The translations under genes were made by a program, and so were the position numbers. From an uncultured Chloroflexales bacterium (lineage in GTDB: Bacteria > Chloroflexota > Chloroflexia > Chloroflexales > Chloroflexaceae), in assembly GCA_937918935.1 (NCBI GenBank), contig CAKZSI010000042.1:1-54887 (forward strand): DNA of 54,887 nt, in the 5' to 3' direction. Below the pieces are notes generated by a model. That model ran no database searches and was not told the origin of the DNA. It saw only the letters and a list, made by a program, of their open reading frames with translations. Shown here one piece after another: positions 254 through 47,168 of the stretch. Every line of letters starts with the position of its first letter. Position 1 is the first letter of the stretch.

Positions 254-336
254 CCCTATGGACATCTCCGAACATGCCTTCGAGACCTATATCGTCAACC
301 ATCTGGTCGCCGTGCATGGCTATCTGAATCGGAGCG

Positions 337-388
337 GTAGTACAGACGTTGCATCGCAACGTCTCCAGGTAGCGCCGCAACGTCTCTC
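337..388. repeat. Degenerate palindromic repeat inside hsdR 5' end
   Basis: Contains CAGACGTTGCATCGCAACGTCT, an interrupted form of the palindrome seen at 1456 and 1548, followed by a further half copy (GCAACGTCTCT). It is translated in frame at the place where HsdR proteins usually have a short charged linker, so it looks like an insertion tolerated by the frame. Confidence 0.6.
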
Positions 389-1447
389 CCCCGATTGCCT
401 CGATTGGGAACTGACCCTCTCCTTCATCACCGCCACCCAGCCCGACACCTGGCGCGACCTGGAAAAACAGCACGGCGCGCAGGCGGTGGAAAAGTTCAAG
501 CGCCGCCTGGTGCGCGAAATCGAGCGGCGCGGCACGCTGGACGTGCTGCGGCGCGGGGTCAAGGATTCGGGCTGTTACTTCCAACTGGCATACTTTGCCC
601 CCGCCACCAGCCTCAACCCGGCGCATCAGGCGCTCTACGGCAAAAACATCCTCTCGGTCATCTGCCAGTGCCGGTACAGCGCGGTCGAGACCAAAGACGC
701 CCTCGACCTGGTTATCTTCCTCAACGGCTTGCCCCTCTTCACCCTCGAACTCAAGAACAAACCCACCGGTCAGACCGTAGCGAATGCCCGCGCGCAATAC
801 GCCAAAGACCGCGACCCTGAAAACGAGCCGCTGCTGCAATTCCGCCGCTGTCTGGCGCATTTTGCCGTGGATGATGATGAAGTCTGGCTGACCACCAGAC
901 TGGAAGGCGTGCGCACCCGCTTTGTACCCTTCAACCGCGGCTATAACGGCGGCGCGGGCAACCCGCCCAACCCCAATGGCTACGCCAGCGCCTACCTGTG
1001 GGAAGACCTCTTCGCCCCCGCCAGCGTGCTGGAACTGGTGGGCAGTTTCGTGCATGTCGAAAACGGCGACCAGCCCGCTCGTCTGATTTTCCCGCGTTAC
1101 CATCAGCGCGATGCAGTGCGAAAACTGGTGGCGCACGCCCGCCAACATGGCGCCGGGCATCACTATCTCATCTAGCACAGCGCTGGCAGCGGCAAGAGCA
1201 ACACCATCGCCTGGCTGGCGCACCGCCTGGCGTCGCTGCACAACGACCAGAATCAGCGCGTCTTCAGTTCGGTCATCGTCATCACCGACCGCCGCGTGCT
1301 CGATAGGCAACTGCAAAACACCGTCCGCCAGTTCGAGCAGGTACCGGGCGTGGTCAACGTCATTGACCAGGACAGCGCCCAACTCGCCGAAGCCCTCAAC
1401 CGCGGTGCAGACATCATCGTCAGCACCCTGCAAAAATTCCCCTTCGT

Positions 1448-1496
1448 GTTGGATCGTGTAGAGACGTTGCATGCAACGTCTCTACACCGATCCAAC
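1448..1496. repeat. Perfect 32-bp palindrome with extended arms, in hsdR
   Basis: The core 1456-1487 is a perfect inverted repeat: GTGTAGAGACGTTGCA followed directly by its reverse complement. Arms GTTGGATC (1448-1455) and GATCCAAC (1489-1496) extend it with one bulged base at 1488. Two more half copies (GATCCAACGTC) follow to about 1518. The insertion causes the second lesion (frame change) in hsdR. Confidence 0.9.
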
Positions 1497-1547
1497 GTCG
1501 CTACACGATCCAACGTCTCAACGAACCTTTGCCGTTATCGTAGACGA

Positions 1548-1571
1548 AGAGACGTTGCATGCAACGTCTCT
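1548..1571. repeat. Second palindrome copy, inside the DEAH box of hsdR
   Basis: AGAGACGTTGCA followed directly by its reverse complement, identical to the core of the copy at 1456. It separates the codons for Asp-Glu from the codon for His of helicase motif II and keeps the frame. Confidence 0.9.
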
Positions 1572-2353
1572 ACACTCCTCGCAGACCAGCGAAGCCAACA
1601 AACGGCTCAAAGAAGTCCTGCGCGCCGAATCGCTGGAAAAAGCCGAGCAGTTAGATGGCGCAGCCGAAGCTGGCGAACCGAGCGGCGAAGACCTCATCAA
1701 CCAGAGCATGGCGGCGCGCGGGCGTCAGCCCAACCTGAGTTTCTTCGCCTTCACTGCCACCCCCAAGCAAAAGACGTTGGAATTGTTCGGCATCGAACAG
1801 CCCGATGGCGCCTTCCGCCCGTTCCATCGCTACACCATGCGGCAAGCCATCGAAGAAGGTTTCATCCTTGATGTGCTGCAAAACTACACCACCTACGAAA
1901 CCTACTTCAACCTGCTCAAAAAAGCCGCCGAAGACCCGCGCATCGAAAAGAGCAAAGCCTTCAGCCTGCTCAAACGCTGCGACAGCCCGCACCGCCTTAC
2001 CATTGCGCAAAAGACTGCCATAATGGTCGAGCATTTCTGGGAAACCACGCGCCACAAAATCCCCGATGCACATGGCGTCGGGCAGGCAAAAGCGATGGTG
2101 GTTGCTGCCAGCCGCCTGCATGCCGTCTTGTATAAACAAGCCTTCGACGCCTATCTGAAACAACAGGGCTACCCCATCCGGGCGTTGGTGGCGTTCTCCA
2201 GCGTAGTGCAGTATCACGGCCTGGATTACACCGAAGCGGGCGTGAACGGTTTCCCCGAACGGCAGACCGCCGAACGGTTCAAGAAGCCCGAATACCGCTT
2301 CCTCATCATCGCCGAAAAGTTCCAGACCGGCTTCGACCAGCCGCTCTTGCAAA

Positions 2354-2545
2354 GAAAAAGGCATTCCTTCATTTCAGAAACTTGTTGCTCGAGGTAATGT
2401 ATTGGAAGGATATAAGGCGCAATATCAATTGTTAGAGGCACATAATGTAACACCTTCCGAGTTTGAAAGCAAGGTGGCCTCCCTTGCACCAGAAGCGACA
2501 GTTGATGGATACCTCATTTTACAACCTGCTGAGAGTGTTATTTAA
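2354..2545 (+). pseudogene. AT-rich C-terminal coding remnant, unrecognised (possible gene-cassette ORF)
   Basis: From 2360 to the TAA at 2543-2545 there is an open frame of about 61 codons, reading GIPSFQKLVARGNVLEGYKA and ending in GYLILQPAESVI. Base composition is much more AT-rich than hsdR and everything downstream, so the junction at about 2354 marks foreign DNA joined to the truncated hsdR. There is no start codon with a ribosome site, so it is probably the 3' end of a lost gene. I do not recognise the protein. A candidate attC site begins 11 bases after the stop, the layout of an integron gene cassette. The alternative is that it is the fortuitous 3' end of any transferred gene. Confidence 0.4.
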
Positions 2546-2555
2546 AACTAAAAAT

Positions 2556-2686
2556 GCGGCCCAACATCGCTTCAAGCCCGACGCGGCTTCGCCGCCTGCA
2601 ATCGGAGGGGAAGCGCACACAACCAGGTCTGCTGTTGAGGGTACGGCGTCGCTTCGCGGCACGGCTGAACCCCACCGTTGGGCCGC
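2556..2686. other. Candidate integron attC recombination site
   Basis: The ends are exact inverted repeats, GCGGCCCAAC (2556-2565) and GTTGGGCCGC (2677-2686). They contain GCCCAAC and GTTGGGC, which match the attC outer consensus RYYYAAC/GTTRRRY. Just inside, TTCAAGCC (2571-2578) faces GGCTGAA (2663-2669), complementary except for one unpaired A, like the extrahelical base of attC inner boxes. The interval holds further small hairpins. The 125-bp length between the outer boxes is within the known attC range. No integrase gene is in the window, so this would be a lone site. Confidence 0.5.
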
Positions 2687-2720
2687 TCTACCGTAGAAGC
2701 CTGTGCCACCATCACCGCTC

Positions 2721-2750
2721 TTGACCGCCGGTATAACTTCGGGTTATACT
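2721..2750 (+). promoter_or_regulatory. Promoter with overlapping palindromic operator of the toxin-antitoxin pair
   Basis: TTGACC (2721-2726) and TATACT (2745-2750) are 18 bases apart. The perfect inverted repeat GTATAAC-TTCGG-GTTATAC (2731-2749) covers the -10 region, the usual place for autorepression by an antitoxin. Confidence 0.7.
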
Positions 2751-2757
2751 GACCGCT

Positions 2758-2994
2758 ATGAAGACCGCTATTTCTATTCCAGATGCCTTGTTTAAGGCTG
2801 CGGAAGAGTACGCTCGTGCGCACGGCCTGTCGCGCAGCGAGCTGTATGCCCGCGCGCTTCAGATCTATCTCCAAATCCAGCAAAGTGAGCAGATTACTGC
2901 CGCTCTCGATCAGGTCTATGCAGAAGAAACGAGCGCACTCGATCCGATATTCAAAGCGACACAGCGGCGTATGCTTGCCGGGGACGATTGGTGA
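2758..2994 (+). CDS. Antitoxin, ribbon-helix-helix type (MazE/CopG-like)
   Basis: A 78-residue protein. The N-terminal segment MKTAISIPDALFKAAEEYAR, followed by GLSRSELYARALQIYL, is a ribbon-helix-helix DNA-binding fold: a short beta strand, then two helices. The C-terminal part (about residues 45-78) is acidic to polar and would wrap the toxin. It is expected to dimerise on the palindrome at 2731-2749 in its own promoter and to neutralise the toxin encoded next. Its stop overlaps the start of the toxin gene by one base (TGATG), so the two are translationally coupled. The pair lies directly after a candidate attC site, a common place for toxin-antitoxin cassettes. Which RHH subfamily it belongs to is not certain. 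Confidence 0.85.
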   Translation: MKTAISIPDALFKAAEEYARAHGLSRSELYARALQIYLQIQQSEQITAALDQVYAEETSALDPIFKATQRRMLAGDDW

Positions 2995-3332
2995 TGCAAC
3001 GCGGTGATGTGTGGTGGGCAAACCTTCCCGACGCCGCTGGTTCAGGCCCCGCCTTTCGTCGCCCGGTGCTGCTCGTTCAAGCCGATTCGTTTACGCGCAG
3101 TCGTATCGCGACGGTCGTCGTTGCCGTCATCACCACTAACCTGCGTCTCGCCGCAGCACCGGGGAATGTCTTGCTGCATGCACGTGAGTCGGGTTTGCCC
3201 ACAGACTCTGTGATCAACGTTTCGCAAATCATCACCCTCGACAAGACGGATCTTGATGCGCAGGTCGGACAGGTATCCGCCACAACGCTCGCCGACGTCG
3301 ACCAGGGCTTGCGCCTGGTACTTGACCTGTAG
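2994..3332 (+). CDS. mRNA interferase toxin, MazF/PemK family
   Basis: 112 residues from ATG 2994; a TTG six bases upstream is a less likely start because the ATG overlaps the antitoxin stop. MQRGDVWWANLPDAAGSGPAFRRPVLLVQAD is the MazF/PemK beginning, with conserved GDVWW, Gly-Pro and RRPVLLVQ. Later come VVVAVITTNLRLA and SVINVSQIITLDKTDL, the family's dimer and active-site strands. Family role: a sequence-specific endoribonuclease that cleaves free mRNA when the antitoxin is lost. No truncation is seen. The stop codon lies within the first of three 29-nt repeats (3328-3356), so whatever placed those repeats abuts the gene exactly. Confidence 0.9.
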   Translation: MQRGDVWWANLPDAAGSGPAFRRPVLLVQADSFTRSRIATVVVAVITTNLRLAAAPGNVLLHARESGLPTDSVINVSQIITLDKTDLDAQVGQVSATTLADVDQGLRLVLDL

Positions 3333-3475
3333 GCTCCCGTAACGCAGGGGAACTACGTGGACAATCCCACGCCGCCAGTCACGAGATGTGTAGGCTCCCC
3401 TGACGTAGGGGAACTACGTGGCCGGTGGCGACGATCACGACGCCATGGCAGGCTCCCCTGACGTAGGGGAACTAC
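3328..3475. repeat. Three 29-nt repeats with 32- and 29-nt spacers (CRISPR-like geometry)
   Basis: Copies at 3328-3356, 3389-3417 and 3447-3475. The core is AGGCTCCCCTGACGTAGGGG followed by AACTAC. Copies 1 and 2 differ at 3 of 29 positions, copies 2 and 3 at 2. Each contains a small hairpin (CCCCT/AGGGG). Read on the minus strand the unit begins GTAGTTCCCCTACGT, resembling the GT-x-TTCCCC...GGGG form of type I-E CRISPR repeats, and the 61-nt period fits 29+32. Spacers are unrelated except that both begin GTGG. No cas genes are present. Confidence 0.6.
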
Positions 3476-3782: not shown

Positions 3783-3839
3783 CAGAAAACGTTCTGTTGC
3801 GTGCGACCGCCAGGCTGCCAGACAATTGACCTCACCCCC

Positions 3840-4574
3840 ATGGACCAGGTCATCACCGTGCTTCACCGCCCCCGCGATGTGCGCAACATCGGCGCTGTGG
3901 TGCGGGCGCTGAAGAATATGGGCTTCCACCGCCTGCGTCTGGTGCAGCCGCCGCCCTTTGACCCGGCGGACCTCACCGTGGTCGCCCATCGCAGTGAGGC
4001 CCTGCTGGCGGGCATCGAGGTCTATGCCGATCTCGACGCTGCCCTGGCCGACGTGCGCTATGTCGTCGGCACCAGTGAGCGGGCGCACCCCGATCGCCCC
4101 ATGCGCGCCGATGTGCGCCCCTTCGCCGCCGAACTCGTCGCTCGCGCTGTAAGCGCCGGTCCGGTGGCGTTGCTCTTCGGCCCCGAGAATCACGGCCTCG
4201 ACAATGCCGCCCTCGACCGTTGCCAGGCTGTGCTGACCCTGCCCGCCGATCCCGCTTACCCCTCGCTAAACCTGGCCCAGGCCGTCTTGCTGACCCTCTA
4301 CGAGTTGCGGATGGCCGCGGCGGGGCCGTTGCCCCCGCTGCCGTCGCGCTCGCCTGCCACCGCCGCGGAACTGTCCGCCACCTTCGAGGCCCTTGCTGCC
4401 GCTGTCGAGGCCGTCGGCTTTATCAAGTCCGGTGAGGGCGCCGCGGTGCTGCGCCGCCTGCGCACCCTCATCACCCGCGCCGAGCCTGACCGCCGCGAGG
4501 CGGCCTTGCTGGCCGCCTTTGCTCGTGAAGTCGTCTATGCCCTCCAACGTCGCGCGGGGAAGGAAGATTCGTGA
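3840..4574 (+). CDS. RNA 2'-O-methyltransferase, TrmH/TrmJ (SpoU) family
   Basis: 244 residues from ATG 3840; a GTG 39 bases upstream would add residues with no family match. The SPOUT signatures are present: [20 protein letters not shown] near the start (asparagine and arginine of motif 1), [10 protein letters not shown] near residue 120 (motif 2), and [16 protein letters not shown] near residue 140 (motif 3, trefoil-knot SAM site). A C-terminal helical extension of about 85 residues resembles that of TrmJ, which methylates the ribose of nucleotide 32 in tRNA. The exact target is inferred and could be another tRNA or rRNA ribose. It converges with the polymerase gene, with 16 bases between the stop codons. 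Confidence 0.85.
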
Positions 4575-9750: not shown

Positions 9751-12700
9751 TCAGGTCAGGCGGCTGATCTGATCGCGGGCCTTACTGGCGAAGTAGCTGT
9801 TCGGGTCGATGCTGATGACAGTCTGGTAGGCGCTAATGGCATCAGCGGTACGTCCCAGATCCTCAGAAACCAGGCCGATAAAGAAGACCGCATCCACATA
9901 GTTGACATTCAGTTCGAAGGCGCGACGAAAACTGTTGAGGGCGGGTTCGAGACGCCCCTGCGCGTAGTGGGCCCGCCCCAGCCAGTAATGCGCCTCGGGG
10001 AAGTTCTCCTGCAGACGAATGGCGCGTTGCAAATCCCGGATGGCCCGATCCTCGCGACCCGCCTGCATGAACAGCATGGCCCGCCGGTAGAAGGTTTCGG
10101 GGATGCGGTCATTGGCGCGGATCGAGGCGTCGTAGGCCGCTCTGGCCTCAGCCGTCTGACCGAGTTCCTGGTAGAGCTTGCCCTGGAACAGGAGGGCCTC
10201 GGCGTAGTCGGCACGCTGCTCCAGGGCGCGTTGCACTGCTTCGAGGGCCACGCCGATGTCGCCGCGGGCGCTCTGCAGTTGCGCCAGACCCAGATAGGCC
10301 TCAGGAAAGACCGGCTGCAGCTCCAGGGTGCGCTGATAGGCTGCGGCGGCGCCCGCGTAATTGCCCTGCCGTAGCAACCCCTCGGCCAGCCAGAACTGCG
10401 CCAGCGGGTCGTCCTGGCCGCCGGGGAAGTTCGCCGCGGTCTGAAAATAACTGGTCGCGACGCCCCAGTTCCCCTGGCCCACAGCGATCAGTCCCAGGCC
10501 AAGCTGCGCCGAAATGAGTGTGGGATTGACCTGCAGCGCCTGGGTGTAACTGCTCACTGACGACTCGAAATCGCCGCTCAGGCGTCGTACATCACCCAGG
10601 GTCACCAGGGCCTCGGCGCGGAGCAATGCCTGGGCGGGGTCGCCGGGGTCGGGGGTCAGGGCCAGCACCGCATTCGCGGCGTCGGCGGCGCGCGGCAGTT
10701 GTCTGGCTGCGAAACTGGCCCGGCTGAGGCGGTGCTGGTAGGCCGCCTCGCCCGGTCGCAGGGCCACTGCCCTGGCGTAGGCTTCCAGGGCCAGGTCATA
10801 CTGCTCCTGGGTCATAACGGCGTCGCCAATCGCGACCAGCTTCTCCGCGTCGTCAATGCCGTGGTCAAGGGCGCGGCGATACTCCTGCACCGCCCCTCGC
10901 GGATCGTTCAGCGGGCCGTAGTAGAGGTCGGCCAGGGCCAGACGCGCGGCGACGTTGCCTTCATCGGCGCGCACCGCCTGCCGGAACAGCCGTTCGGCGG
11001 TTTGATAGTCGTTCTCCGTAACGGCCAGCCTTCCCAGCGCGAGTAACGCGGGGGCCGAACGCGGGTCGAGGTTCAGGGCGTCGGTATAGGCGTCACGGGC
11101 GGCATCGGGGCGACCGGCGGCTTCGTACAACTGGCCAAGTTCTACGGCCGCGACGGCGCTGGACGGGCTGTACCTGGTCAGAATGTCCTCGGCTTCGGGG
11201 TAGAAGTCCGGGCCCATCTGCCGCAGGGTGCGCGCCAGGTCCACGGCGCTCTGCGGCGACGGGCGCTGATCGAGCAGCACACGGCGCTGCGCCACGGCGC
11301 CCTGCAAGTCGCCCTGGGCCTCAGCGATGGCGGCCAGTTCCACACGCGCGGGGAAAAAGGCATTGTTGCGCTCCAGCGCGAGCGTGTAGCGTTCGATGGC
11401 CCGTGGCAAATCACCGCGAGCGCGAGCGACCGCACCCTGGCCAAAGTAGCCCTCGGGCGCCTGGGGCGCCAGTTGCAGCGTCTGAGCATAGGCCTGTTCA
11501 GCGGCGTCGAGATTGCCCAGGAGGCGGTGGGCGCGCCCGATGGCCGCGCTGATCCGCGGGTCGCCTGGACGCCGCTGCTGCAAAGCCTCAAGGGCGACCA
11601 GGTACGGCGGGCGCGGAGTTGCGGCGGCGAACAGCGCCCCCAGACCCGAGCGCGCCCGCGGACGGGTGCGAGTCTGTTCCATTTCCACGACTGCCTGGTA
11701 GAAGCGTTGCCGATCGGCGTTCAGCCTGGCCCGTTCGGCCTGGCCGCTCCCAACGAACCCGGCCTCGCCGGAGCGAGCGCCGTCGGCGATAGCGCGCTGG
11801 CGCCACTGCGTCACCTCACGGGCGCTCCCATCAGCGGCCTGGTCAAGGCCGGCCCGCGCATCGGCCAGGTCGGCGAACGGCACAGCCGGGCTCACCTCCA
11901 ACTCCCAGAGCAGTTGGCCCTGGGCATCCATGCGGCGGGCCAGGTCGAGCAGAGCGTTCTCCTCGCTCAGGGCAGCCTCCACGCGCTGCCGGTACATCGG
12001 GCGATAGACCGGGGCCACTATCTGGCTGTCGGGATCACGCGCGCGGCGGGCGGCCTCGAGCGCGGCGGCGGCCTCGTCGAGCTGCCCGTTTTCGCGGTAG
12101 GCCGTGGCCAGGGTCAACAACAGGGGGGCATGGGCGGGCAACAGGTTACGCGCCTGCTCCAATTCGATCCTCGCATCGCCCGGACGGTTCTCGCGCAGGG
12201 CCTGCAACGCCAGATTGACGCGCAACTCACCCAGATCCAGTCCCTGGAGCAGCCGTACCGCCTCGGCGAAGGCGCTGAGGGCAGCCGGATCGCCACCATC
12301 CAGGAGCACCGCGCCAAGGTTGTTCGCCAGCAGGGCCTGTTCATCCGCGGGTTCGCTCAGCGCAAGGCGGTATTCCTCAGCCGCAGCGGTATAGGCCCGG
12401 CGCGCCCAGAGCACATTGCCGCGCAGGGCGCGCGGCAGCGGCGCGCGCAACTCCGGGTAGTCCTCCAACAACCGTCCAAGTGCAGTGAAGGCCCGATCGG
12501 CCTCGCCCCGGGCATAGGCGTGCAAGGCGAGGATCAGCGGGGCCAGCGTGGCCCGCCCGTTGATCGGCGCGCGGGCCAGCGTATAGCTCCGCGGCATCGC
12601 GAAGCGGCCCAGGTACCCATCCCAGCCATTGGGCGCATACGGTCCGGTGGGTTGGTAGATCAGGCGTGGCTGAAGCGAGGGGCTGTCGAGGATGGCGCCT

Positions 12701-46214: not shown

Positions 46215-47168
46215 ATGCAAGAGCAAGTCGATCAGTTTCTAGAGTACCTGGCGGCGGAGCGTGGCACATCCACTAATACCATCGCCGCCTATCGTACCGA
46301 CCTCGACCAACTCTGCGCCTATCTGCGCGACCAGAACCTGAACGAGTGGCAAAGCGTCACTTCCGATCACGTGCTGGGCTTCATGTTGTACCTGCGCGAA
46401 CGGCGCTACGCCAATTCAACGATCGCCCGCCGTACCGCGGCGCTAAAGTCGTTCTTCGGCTACCTCACCGAGCAGCATCTCATCGCAAACGACCCCACCC
46501 GGCGCATCGACTCACCCCGGGTGGATCGCTATCCACCCAGGGCCCTATCCCAGCATCAGGTCGACGAATTGCTCGAATTACCCCTGCGCTCTTCCTCACC
46601 TGAGGGCCTCCGGGATAAGGCGATGCTCGAACTCCTCTACGCCACCGGGCTGCGCGTCAGCGAACTGGTGGCGTTAAACGTCTCGGATGTGTTGATCGAG
46701 CAGGGGTCCGTCCGCTGCGCGGGGCGGGCCGGCCGCGAACGGATCCTGCCCCTTGGCGAAACCGCGGTGACCGCTCTTGAGGAATATCTGGACACGGCGC
46801 GGACGCGCCTGCTGCACAATGGCAGCCAGCCGACGGAGGCGCTCTTCCTGAACCATCGCGGCAAGCGGCTCACCCGCCAGGGGCTGTGGCTCATTCTTAA
46901 AGGATATGCCGAAGAGGTGGGGCTCCACGATCTTACCCCCCATACCCTCCGCCATTCCTTTGCGGCTCACCTGCTCGAAAACGGCGCCGAACTGCGCGAG
47001 GTGCAGGAACGCCTTGGTCATGCTTCACTCTCCACTACCCAGATCTACACCCAGTTGCCCGATGGTTCGCCTACCCAGCGCCGGCCCACGCGGCCAGGCG
47101 AACCCGGCCAACGCAATGGCCAGCACTCCGGGGTGTACGAGGAGGTGCTGGTCGAGGAAGAGGAATAA
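46215..47168 (+). CDS. xerC: Tyrosine site-specific recombinase (XerC/XerD family)
   Basis: 317 residues. The N-terminal SAM-like core-binding domain (1-100) reads VDQFLEYLAAERGTSTNTIAAYRTDL. Catalytic residues: Arg in YATGLRVSELVAL, HTLRHSFAAHLL (His and Arg), LGHASLSTTQIYT (His and the nucleophile Tyr). The strand where family members have GKGxKERxVP reads GRAGRERILP, so the usual catalytic Lys is Arg. A C-terminal tail of about 38 residues is polar then acidic (EEVLVEEEE), longer than in XerC or XerD. Probable role: chromosome dimer resolution. No att site or phage genes are near, which favours a housekeeping Xer over an integrase. Confidence 0.85.
   Translation: MQEQVDQFLEYLAAERGTSTNTIAAYRTDLDQLCAYLRDQNLNEWQSVTSDHVLGFMLYLRERRYANSTIARRTAALKSFFGYLTEQHLIANDPTRRIDSPRVDRYPPRALSQHQVDELLELPLRSSSPEGLRDKAMLELLYATGLRVSELVALNVSDVLIEQGSVRCAGRAGRERILPLGETAVTALEEYLDTARTRLLHNGSQPTEALFLNHRGKRLTRQGLWLILKGYAEEVGLHDLTPHTLRHSFAAHLLENGAELREVQERLGHASLSTTQIYTQLPDGSPTQRRPTRPGEPGQRNGQHSGVYEEVLVEEEE

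Follow-up and report, generated by a model that had tools for sequence, protein, structure and literature searches.

The Locus and Its Features

The window, meaning the whole stretch of DNA analysed here (54,887 nt), is the entire contig C42 of an uncultured Chloroflexales bacterium whose genome comprises 85 contigs and 4.60 Mb. Near the start of this contig, a broken restriction gene runs up to an AT-rich coding remnant, which is followed by a probable attC site, a toxin-antitoxin unit and a chromosomal RNA methyltransferase gene. The features are as follows:

258..2347, + strand: broken hsdR-like gene (type I restriction), placed by open reading frames and profile matches and cut off near 2347
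2351..2545, + strand: AT-rich coding remnant, the final 64 codons plus stop codon of the gene for a protein of about 390 aa
2559..2683, + strand: attC site, very probably genuine, located with our own covariance model (R1, 20.5 bits) and an arm-and-stem scanner, letters checked
2570..2578, + strand: L'' box, CTTCAAGCC, with an additional A at 2574 or 2575 as the likely extrahelical base
2579..2662, + strand: variable terminal structure, 84 nt, with poor self-complementarity beside the L boxes
2663..2670, + strand: L' box, GGCTGAAC, found by scanner and pattern search, letters checked
2678..3346, + strand: apparent toxin-antitoxin cassette whose own attC cannot be recognised
2731..2749, + strand: palindrome GTATAACTTCGGGTTATAC, likely the operator or promoter of the pair
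2758..2994, + strand: antitoxin gene, 78 aa, at best ribbon-helix-helix-like
2994..3332, + strand: MazF/PemK-family toxin gene, 112 aa (PF02452, 89.3 bits, E 2.3e-25)
3801..4574, + strand: TrmJ/YjtD-family RNA methyltransferase gene, chromosomal flank (TIGR00050, 151.7 bits, cut-off 167.15)

The hsdR-like gene carries a stop codon at 1173-1175. HSDR_N matches 258-1172 with 51.8 bits, and SWI2_SNF2 matches 1471-2394 with 21.7 bits, below its cut-off of 26.7; the end of the gene near 2347 is placed tentatively from an HsdR motif. Two exact copies of a 22-bp palindrome, GAGACGTTGCATGCAACGTCTC, lie within the broken gene (1461-1482 and 1549-1570), and among 310 loci this palindrome is found only in those spanning the same stretch of the broken hsdR. 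A fragment of a REP-associated tyrosine transposase lies at the contig start, at 20-253 (NF047646, 40.9 bits, cut-off 80).

The coding remnant has a GC content of 40.5% compared with 65.2% for the window, a value equally low in 0.3% of 195-bp windows, which agrees with the foreign composition attributed to it in the earlier note. Its best relative by tblastn is a protein of a Candidatus Chlorohelix plasmid (61.8% identity over 55 aa, E 1e-14), and relatives occur in 11 of the 82 genomes of the order, its own included (E<=0.01). The Chlorohelix protein matches the PADLOC model JukB over residues 14-155 (79.5 bits) and adjoins helicases that match defence models. Because the window keeps only the end opposite to the JukB-matching region, the function of the remnant is something we can only infer. 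The loci of the remnant's relatives, searched with short flanks, showed no attC, and the gene has thus not been seen as a cassette elsewhere. The stop codon of the remnant (TAA, 2543-2545) precedes the attC site by 13 nt, where 11 had been counted before. A gene stop about 13 nt ahead of an attC is usual for cassette genes. With its stop at this distance, the remnant is probably the 3' end of an upstream cassette, the front of whose gene would have disappeared when it became fused to hsdR.

The Probable attC Site

The site is 125 nt long and is bounded by the outer arms GCCCAAC (2559-2565) and GTTGGGC (2677-2683), which are complementary at 7/7 positions and match the attC arm motifs RYYYAAC and GTTRRRY exactly. 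When lengthened to GCGGCCCAAC and GTTGGGCCGC, i.e., out to 2556 and 2686, the arms are complementary at 10/10 positions. Within them, CTTCAAGCC and GGCTGAAC form the inner stem expected of an attC, with 7/8 pairs and, in the 5' box, a single additional A, and the spacers between the arms and the inner boxes measure 4 and 6 nt. The arm motifs, length, inner complementary boxes and unpaired A reported in the earlier note are therefore all borne out. Relative to the attC sites of congeners, the site in the window carries an additional C behind L'' and altered inner boxes.

Covariance model R1 was trained on 20 attC sites adjoining integron integrases in named genomes, a set that excluded the window and its family. 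Variable loops were masked in the alignment, and eight rows were given one N of padding to hold the register. These 20 sites were retained from 35 collected: L115, L131, L140, L148 and L152 were removed by hand and others by spacer limits, while most of the L118 sites and the L100 sites were omitted, several having been misplaced by MAFFT and others being near-duplicates. This model, blind to the site, gives it 20.5 bits (E 0.005) in a search of 220,843 bases made up of the window and 11 chosen loci. There were 14 matches at E<=10 in these bases: 12 fall at loci that hold an integron integrase or what is left of one, another lies in the congener locus G025:C3 (L073), and the last is the site itself. 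With filters off, the score is strand-specific, at 20.5 bits on the + strand against 5.4 bits on the - strand.

A further 1,717,744 bases of the genome were searched with R1, which together with the window and contig C63 amounts to 1.80 of 4.60 Mb (39%). Zero matches were found in 1,350,483 of these bases, and the other 367,261 yielded just one 33-bp palindrome, matched on both strands (19.9 and 14.4 bits) and too short to be taken as an attC. Thus, R1 found no second attC in the 1.80 Mb scanned. A covariance search over the whole genome is uninformative, as it scored 150 of 2,775 candidates and missed the known site itself. When the whole genome was searched by pattern, the 3' half of the site matched only the window site, and the 5' half had no match. 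Across the family the 5'-half pattern is noisy, matching in 32 of 41 genomes and also when run backwards as a control, so only its same-strand clusters in G025:C3 (five) and in the congener contig G024:C114 (four) were used, as hints. Rfam contained no relevant family, and a pattern scan of viral contigs gave no match.

The Toxin-Antitoxin Unit

The two genes of the unit overlap, the antitoxin stop and the toxin start sharing the sequence TGATG. The antitoxin shows matches to RHH_1, VapB and DUF6364, and none to MazE/AbrB in the profile search; all of its family matches fall below the cut-offs. Of the mazEF-type pair proposed earlier, the toxin half stands as a member of the MazF/PemK family, while the antitoxin is ribbon-helix-helix-like at best. 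A palindrome similar to GTATAACTTCGGGTTATAC precedes the pair in relatives as well.

Relatives of the toxin are present in eight of the 41 family genomes, its own included (E<=1e-15), and in none of the four congeners at that threshold. G031, which belongs to another genus, has a copy that shares 93.7% identity with the unit across 668 bp (window 2679-3346), and this block of homology starts no more than 2 nt from the predicted attC cross-over, where the 5' boundary of a cassette would lie. The motif GTTRRRY precedes the antitoxin start by 81 nt in the window, by 79 nt in locus L305 and by 77 nt in L310. It is absent at that distance from six of the nine toxin loci, which suggests that several copies lost the boundary or moved otherwise.

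In a third genus, the pair on contig C85 of genome G016 is flanked, as read by eye, by two attC-like sites; the one before it ends in GTTAGGTGGC, and the one after it begins with the complementary GCCACCTAAC. R1 gives the upstream site no more than 7.8 bits (E 2.1) and no score to the downstream one, which is about 250 nt long; another site about 1.1 kb upstream reaches 31.6 bits (R1). On contig C1 of the same genome, the pair follows sequence resembling the region ahead of the main integrase of G016 (best piece 82% over 89 bp). G015 has a look-alike directly after the toxin (6.7 bits) and an upstream site of 20.8 bits (both R1). Past 2683 in the window, R1 found no attC after the toxin on the + strand at E<=10. 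Judged by these sequence features, the toxin-antitoxin unit appears to be a cassette.

Two further observations concern the surroundings of the pair. In locus L303 (G031:C150), the 94% identical pair directly follows an apparent tRNA gene, and its start carries GCGCCCAACATGGGCCGC, which looks like attC arms minus the hairpin (both by eye). In the window, an imperfect tandem repeat of about 77% identity, with units like GTAGGCTCCCCTGACGTAGGGGAACTACGTGG, occupies 3328-3475 just past the toxin.

Integron Integrase and attC Sites in Related Genomes

The genome carries an integron integrase on contig C63, an intact 324-aa ORF that matches TIGR02249 with 485 bits (cut-off 265). It has R, H, R, H and Y at the columns conserved in the family (IntI-type), which we take to be the catalytic residues, and is 92% identical to its nearest named record, from a "Chloroflexota bacterium" MAG. 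The search for an integrase and further attC sites in the genome thus produced the former on C63 and, in the 39% scanned, no second example of the latter. No integron integrase was found on C42 itself. A Xer-type tyrosine recombinase at 46257-47054 (tyrosine recombinase family, 307.8 bits, cut-off 279) was rejected as an integron integrase, its TIGR02249 score of 105.8 bits being far below the cut-off. Ahead of the C63 integrase lies an attI-like region, followed by an AccI-like endonuclease and a methylase that runs off the contig end. This endonuclease and its type II-like methylase (L013, 5840-8267) adjoin attI and are likely the first cassette; R1 revealed no attC beside them.

An integron integrase scores above the cut-off in 18 of 41 family genomes, and attC sites are present in three of four congeners (G024, G025 and G026). 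In G026, the same integrase with one stop is accompanied by an attI-like region and by cassettes that terminate in attC sites scoring 18.2 and 33.8 bits; the stronger of these two sites has GCGGCCCAACATCG and CACCGTTRGGCCGC in common with the window site. In G025, an integrase with its middle deleted precedes three reading frames (an Argonaute, one of 187 aa and one of 147 aa), and an attC stands behind every one of them; these sites score 16.3, 13.4 and 14.3 bits in that order with filters off, and default filters find only the last. The arm GGCGGCATAAC of the Argonaute cassette can pair with GTTATGCCGCC, the 5' end of that same cassette, which is what a cassette should show. This gene encodes a long prokaryotic Argonaute (L072 9576-11726 on G025:C2; PADLOC pAgo 917.8 bits, Pfam Piwi 67.1 bits) and is the first cassette, lying between the attI-like site and the attC at 11735-11814. 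G024 has an attC of 25.0 bits (R1), and no attC was seen in the stretches of G027 that were read.

Downstream of the toxin-antitoxin pair, a 94-aa ORF precedes the TrmJ gene at 3801, and DNA similarity to G025 on the TrmJ side begins at 3803. Upstream of TrmJ, G025 has one attC of 23.2 bits (R1), a second with perfect arms that was found by the scanner only, and eroded look-alikes recognised by eye and by pattern. The presence of attC sites or look-alikes before TrmJ in both genomes indicates cassette debris there in two species. In G027, what precedes TrmJ are, by eye, apparently ordinary genes and an AbrB/MazF-like pair. Because the integrase remnant and TrmJ of G025 sit on separate contigs, we do not claim that C63 runs directly into C42.

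Interpretation and Alternative Explanations

Taken together, the observed anatomy, the model score, the integrase gene, the homology boundary at the cross-over and the attC arrays of congeners speak strongly for a genuine, partly worn integron attC that joins an upstream cassette remnant to a toxin-antitoxin cassette. With an attC-like site and an integrase in the same genome, this bacterium appears to have traded genes by integron capture. The earlier suggestion of integron-borne DNA therefore holds, and the outcome named beforehand as speaking against it, a failing attC score with no such sites or integrase in the genome or its relatives, did not occur. The layout is that of cassettes, as had been proposed. 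Rather than a lone cassette, it is a junction of two, with only the 3' end preserved upstream and no recognisable attC behind the toxin-antitoxin cassette.

Integron integrases bind the folded bottom strand of attC and recombine at G^TTRRRY. From what is known of integrons, an integrase such as that on C63 would recognise the site in this form, and recombination at G^TTRRRY would allow cassettes to be inserted, excised or shuffled. It is plausible that the C63 integrase made the arrangement on C42, and that the array later decayed as the upstream cassette became fused to hsdR and the next attC was lost. Counting against the attC reading, the fold with the attC pairs enforced makes up 2.3% of the ensemble, compared with 11, 17, 23, 37, 79 and 79% in six other attC sites. 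In our reading, the site is real and starting to decay, as seen in the extra C after L'', the inner-box changes and the weak fold.

A wider reading, which we put forward tentatively and rate a little below an even chance, is that chromosomal integrons are maintained in this Chloroflexota family and carry defence modules from one genus to another, with the window as a second, decaying outpost. It draws on the integrase in 18 of 41 genomes, the Argonaute as first cassette in G025 and the 94% unit shared across genera. The first cassette of the genome under study is itself probably an AccI-like restriction-modification pair. If the integron interpretation of the site is right, a deep-branching bacterial lineage beyond Pseudomonadota possesses an intact integrase together with an attI-like site, attC sites and a cassette common to different genera, some of its cassette genes being of defence type, and cassette traffic could then be followed in that lineage. 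The worn site would offer a natural case of attC decay for comparison with better-preserved relatives.

A variant of the main reading is off-target capture, in which the integrase would have inserted the cassettes at a secondary position of the chromosome, close to TrmJ, so that no integron with an integrase of its own ever had its array at the C42 locus. As a joint claim, this comes near to being an even proposition and falls just short of it. It is favoured by G025, where two separate long contigs carry the integrase remnant (C2) and TrmJ (C3) and attC sites lie near both, and by the ordinary genes seen by eye ahead of TrmJ in G027. However, a rearranged or split array would look identical, and C63 and C42 each end at assembly gaps. 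It also counts against the off-target variant that a complete attC ahead of the toxin-antitoxin unit implies another cassette before it, and hence the arrival of no fewer than two.

Very improbable, by comparison, is a chance inverted repeat or a terminator-like intergenic hairpin with no relation to integrons. The arm-and-stem score of the site, 33.99, ranks top in the window, and 100 Markov-shuffled windows produced 17 hits of at least 32 and three of at least 34, i.e., 0.03-0.17 per shuffled window; given these chance hits, this score alone is suggestive only. The fold is similarly weak. The bottom strand, whose folding had been proposed as a check, has a folding-energy z of -1.14, with 28 of 200 shuffles folding equally well, and the top strand has a z of -1.76, with 10 of 200 equally good. 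Folding energy by itself does not make the site stand out. Against chance stands the covariance model, which is more specific than the arm-and-stem score: the scanner gave seven hits in 1.35 Mb of the genome's other DNA, and R1 supports none of them. The flanks in common with the G026 attC, the integron integrase within the same genome and the fact that toxin-antitoxin homology begins at the cross-over point also argue against a chance repeat.

Least probable of all, and hardly to be entertained, is a REP-type palindrome mobilised by a tyrosine transposase of the REP-associated kind. Part of such a gene does lie at 20-253, but REP elements are dispersed repeats, and a DNA search of the whole genome with the site recovered, apart from the site, no more than five weak matches, each 16-34 bases long (E 0.024-0.55).

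Comparison With Known Integron Systems

The window shares with the attC sites and cassettes of chromosomal integrons the arm motifs, the spacers, an inner stem with an extra base, a nearby gene stop, a strand-specific model score and an integrase in the genome. It differs from them in having a single site, no integrase on the contig, a partly eroded inner stem and loop, and incomplete neighbouring cassettes. Integrons have been recorded in this phylum before, as Chloroflexi integron integrases were already listed in 2008 (PMC2426708) and Chloroflexota appears within later lists of integron-bearing phyla (PMC8618304, PMC9668308). An Argonaute cassette is not named in the titles and abstract openings of the papers matched on integron cassettes and defence, which makes for a weak negative.

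An attC without a neighbouring integrase also brings the window close to CALINs and to single attC sites that lack an integrase. CALINs are described in PMC8618304 and PMC9668308; PMC8618304 counts off-target insertion and intI loss among the ways in which they arise, and PMC9668308 defines them by at least two attC sites less than 4 kb apart. The window differs in that it has one attC (at E<=10, with one full-score site around it), and G025:C3, beside the same TrmJ gene, is closer to a CALIN than the window is.

Toxin-antitoxin systems are named in PMC8618304 among the common functions of integron cassettes, so that both integrons in Chloroflexota and toxin-antitoxin cassettes are already known. 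Compared with integron toxin-antitoxin cassettes, the unit in the window is distinguished by its Chloroflexota host, by the combination of a MazF-type toxin with an antitoxin that is ribbon-helix-helix-like at best, and by an attC of its own that is not recognisable. What it shares with them is a two-gene unit that appears to be carried as a cassette.
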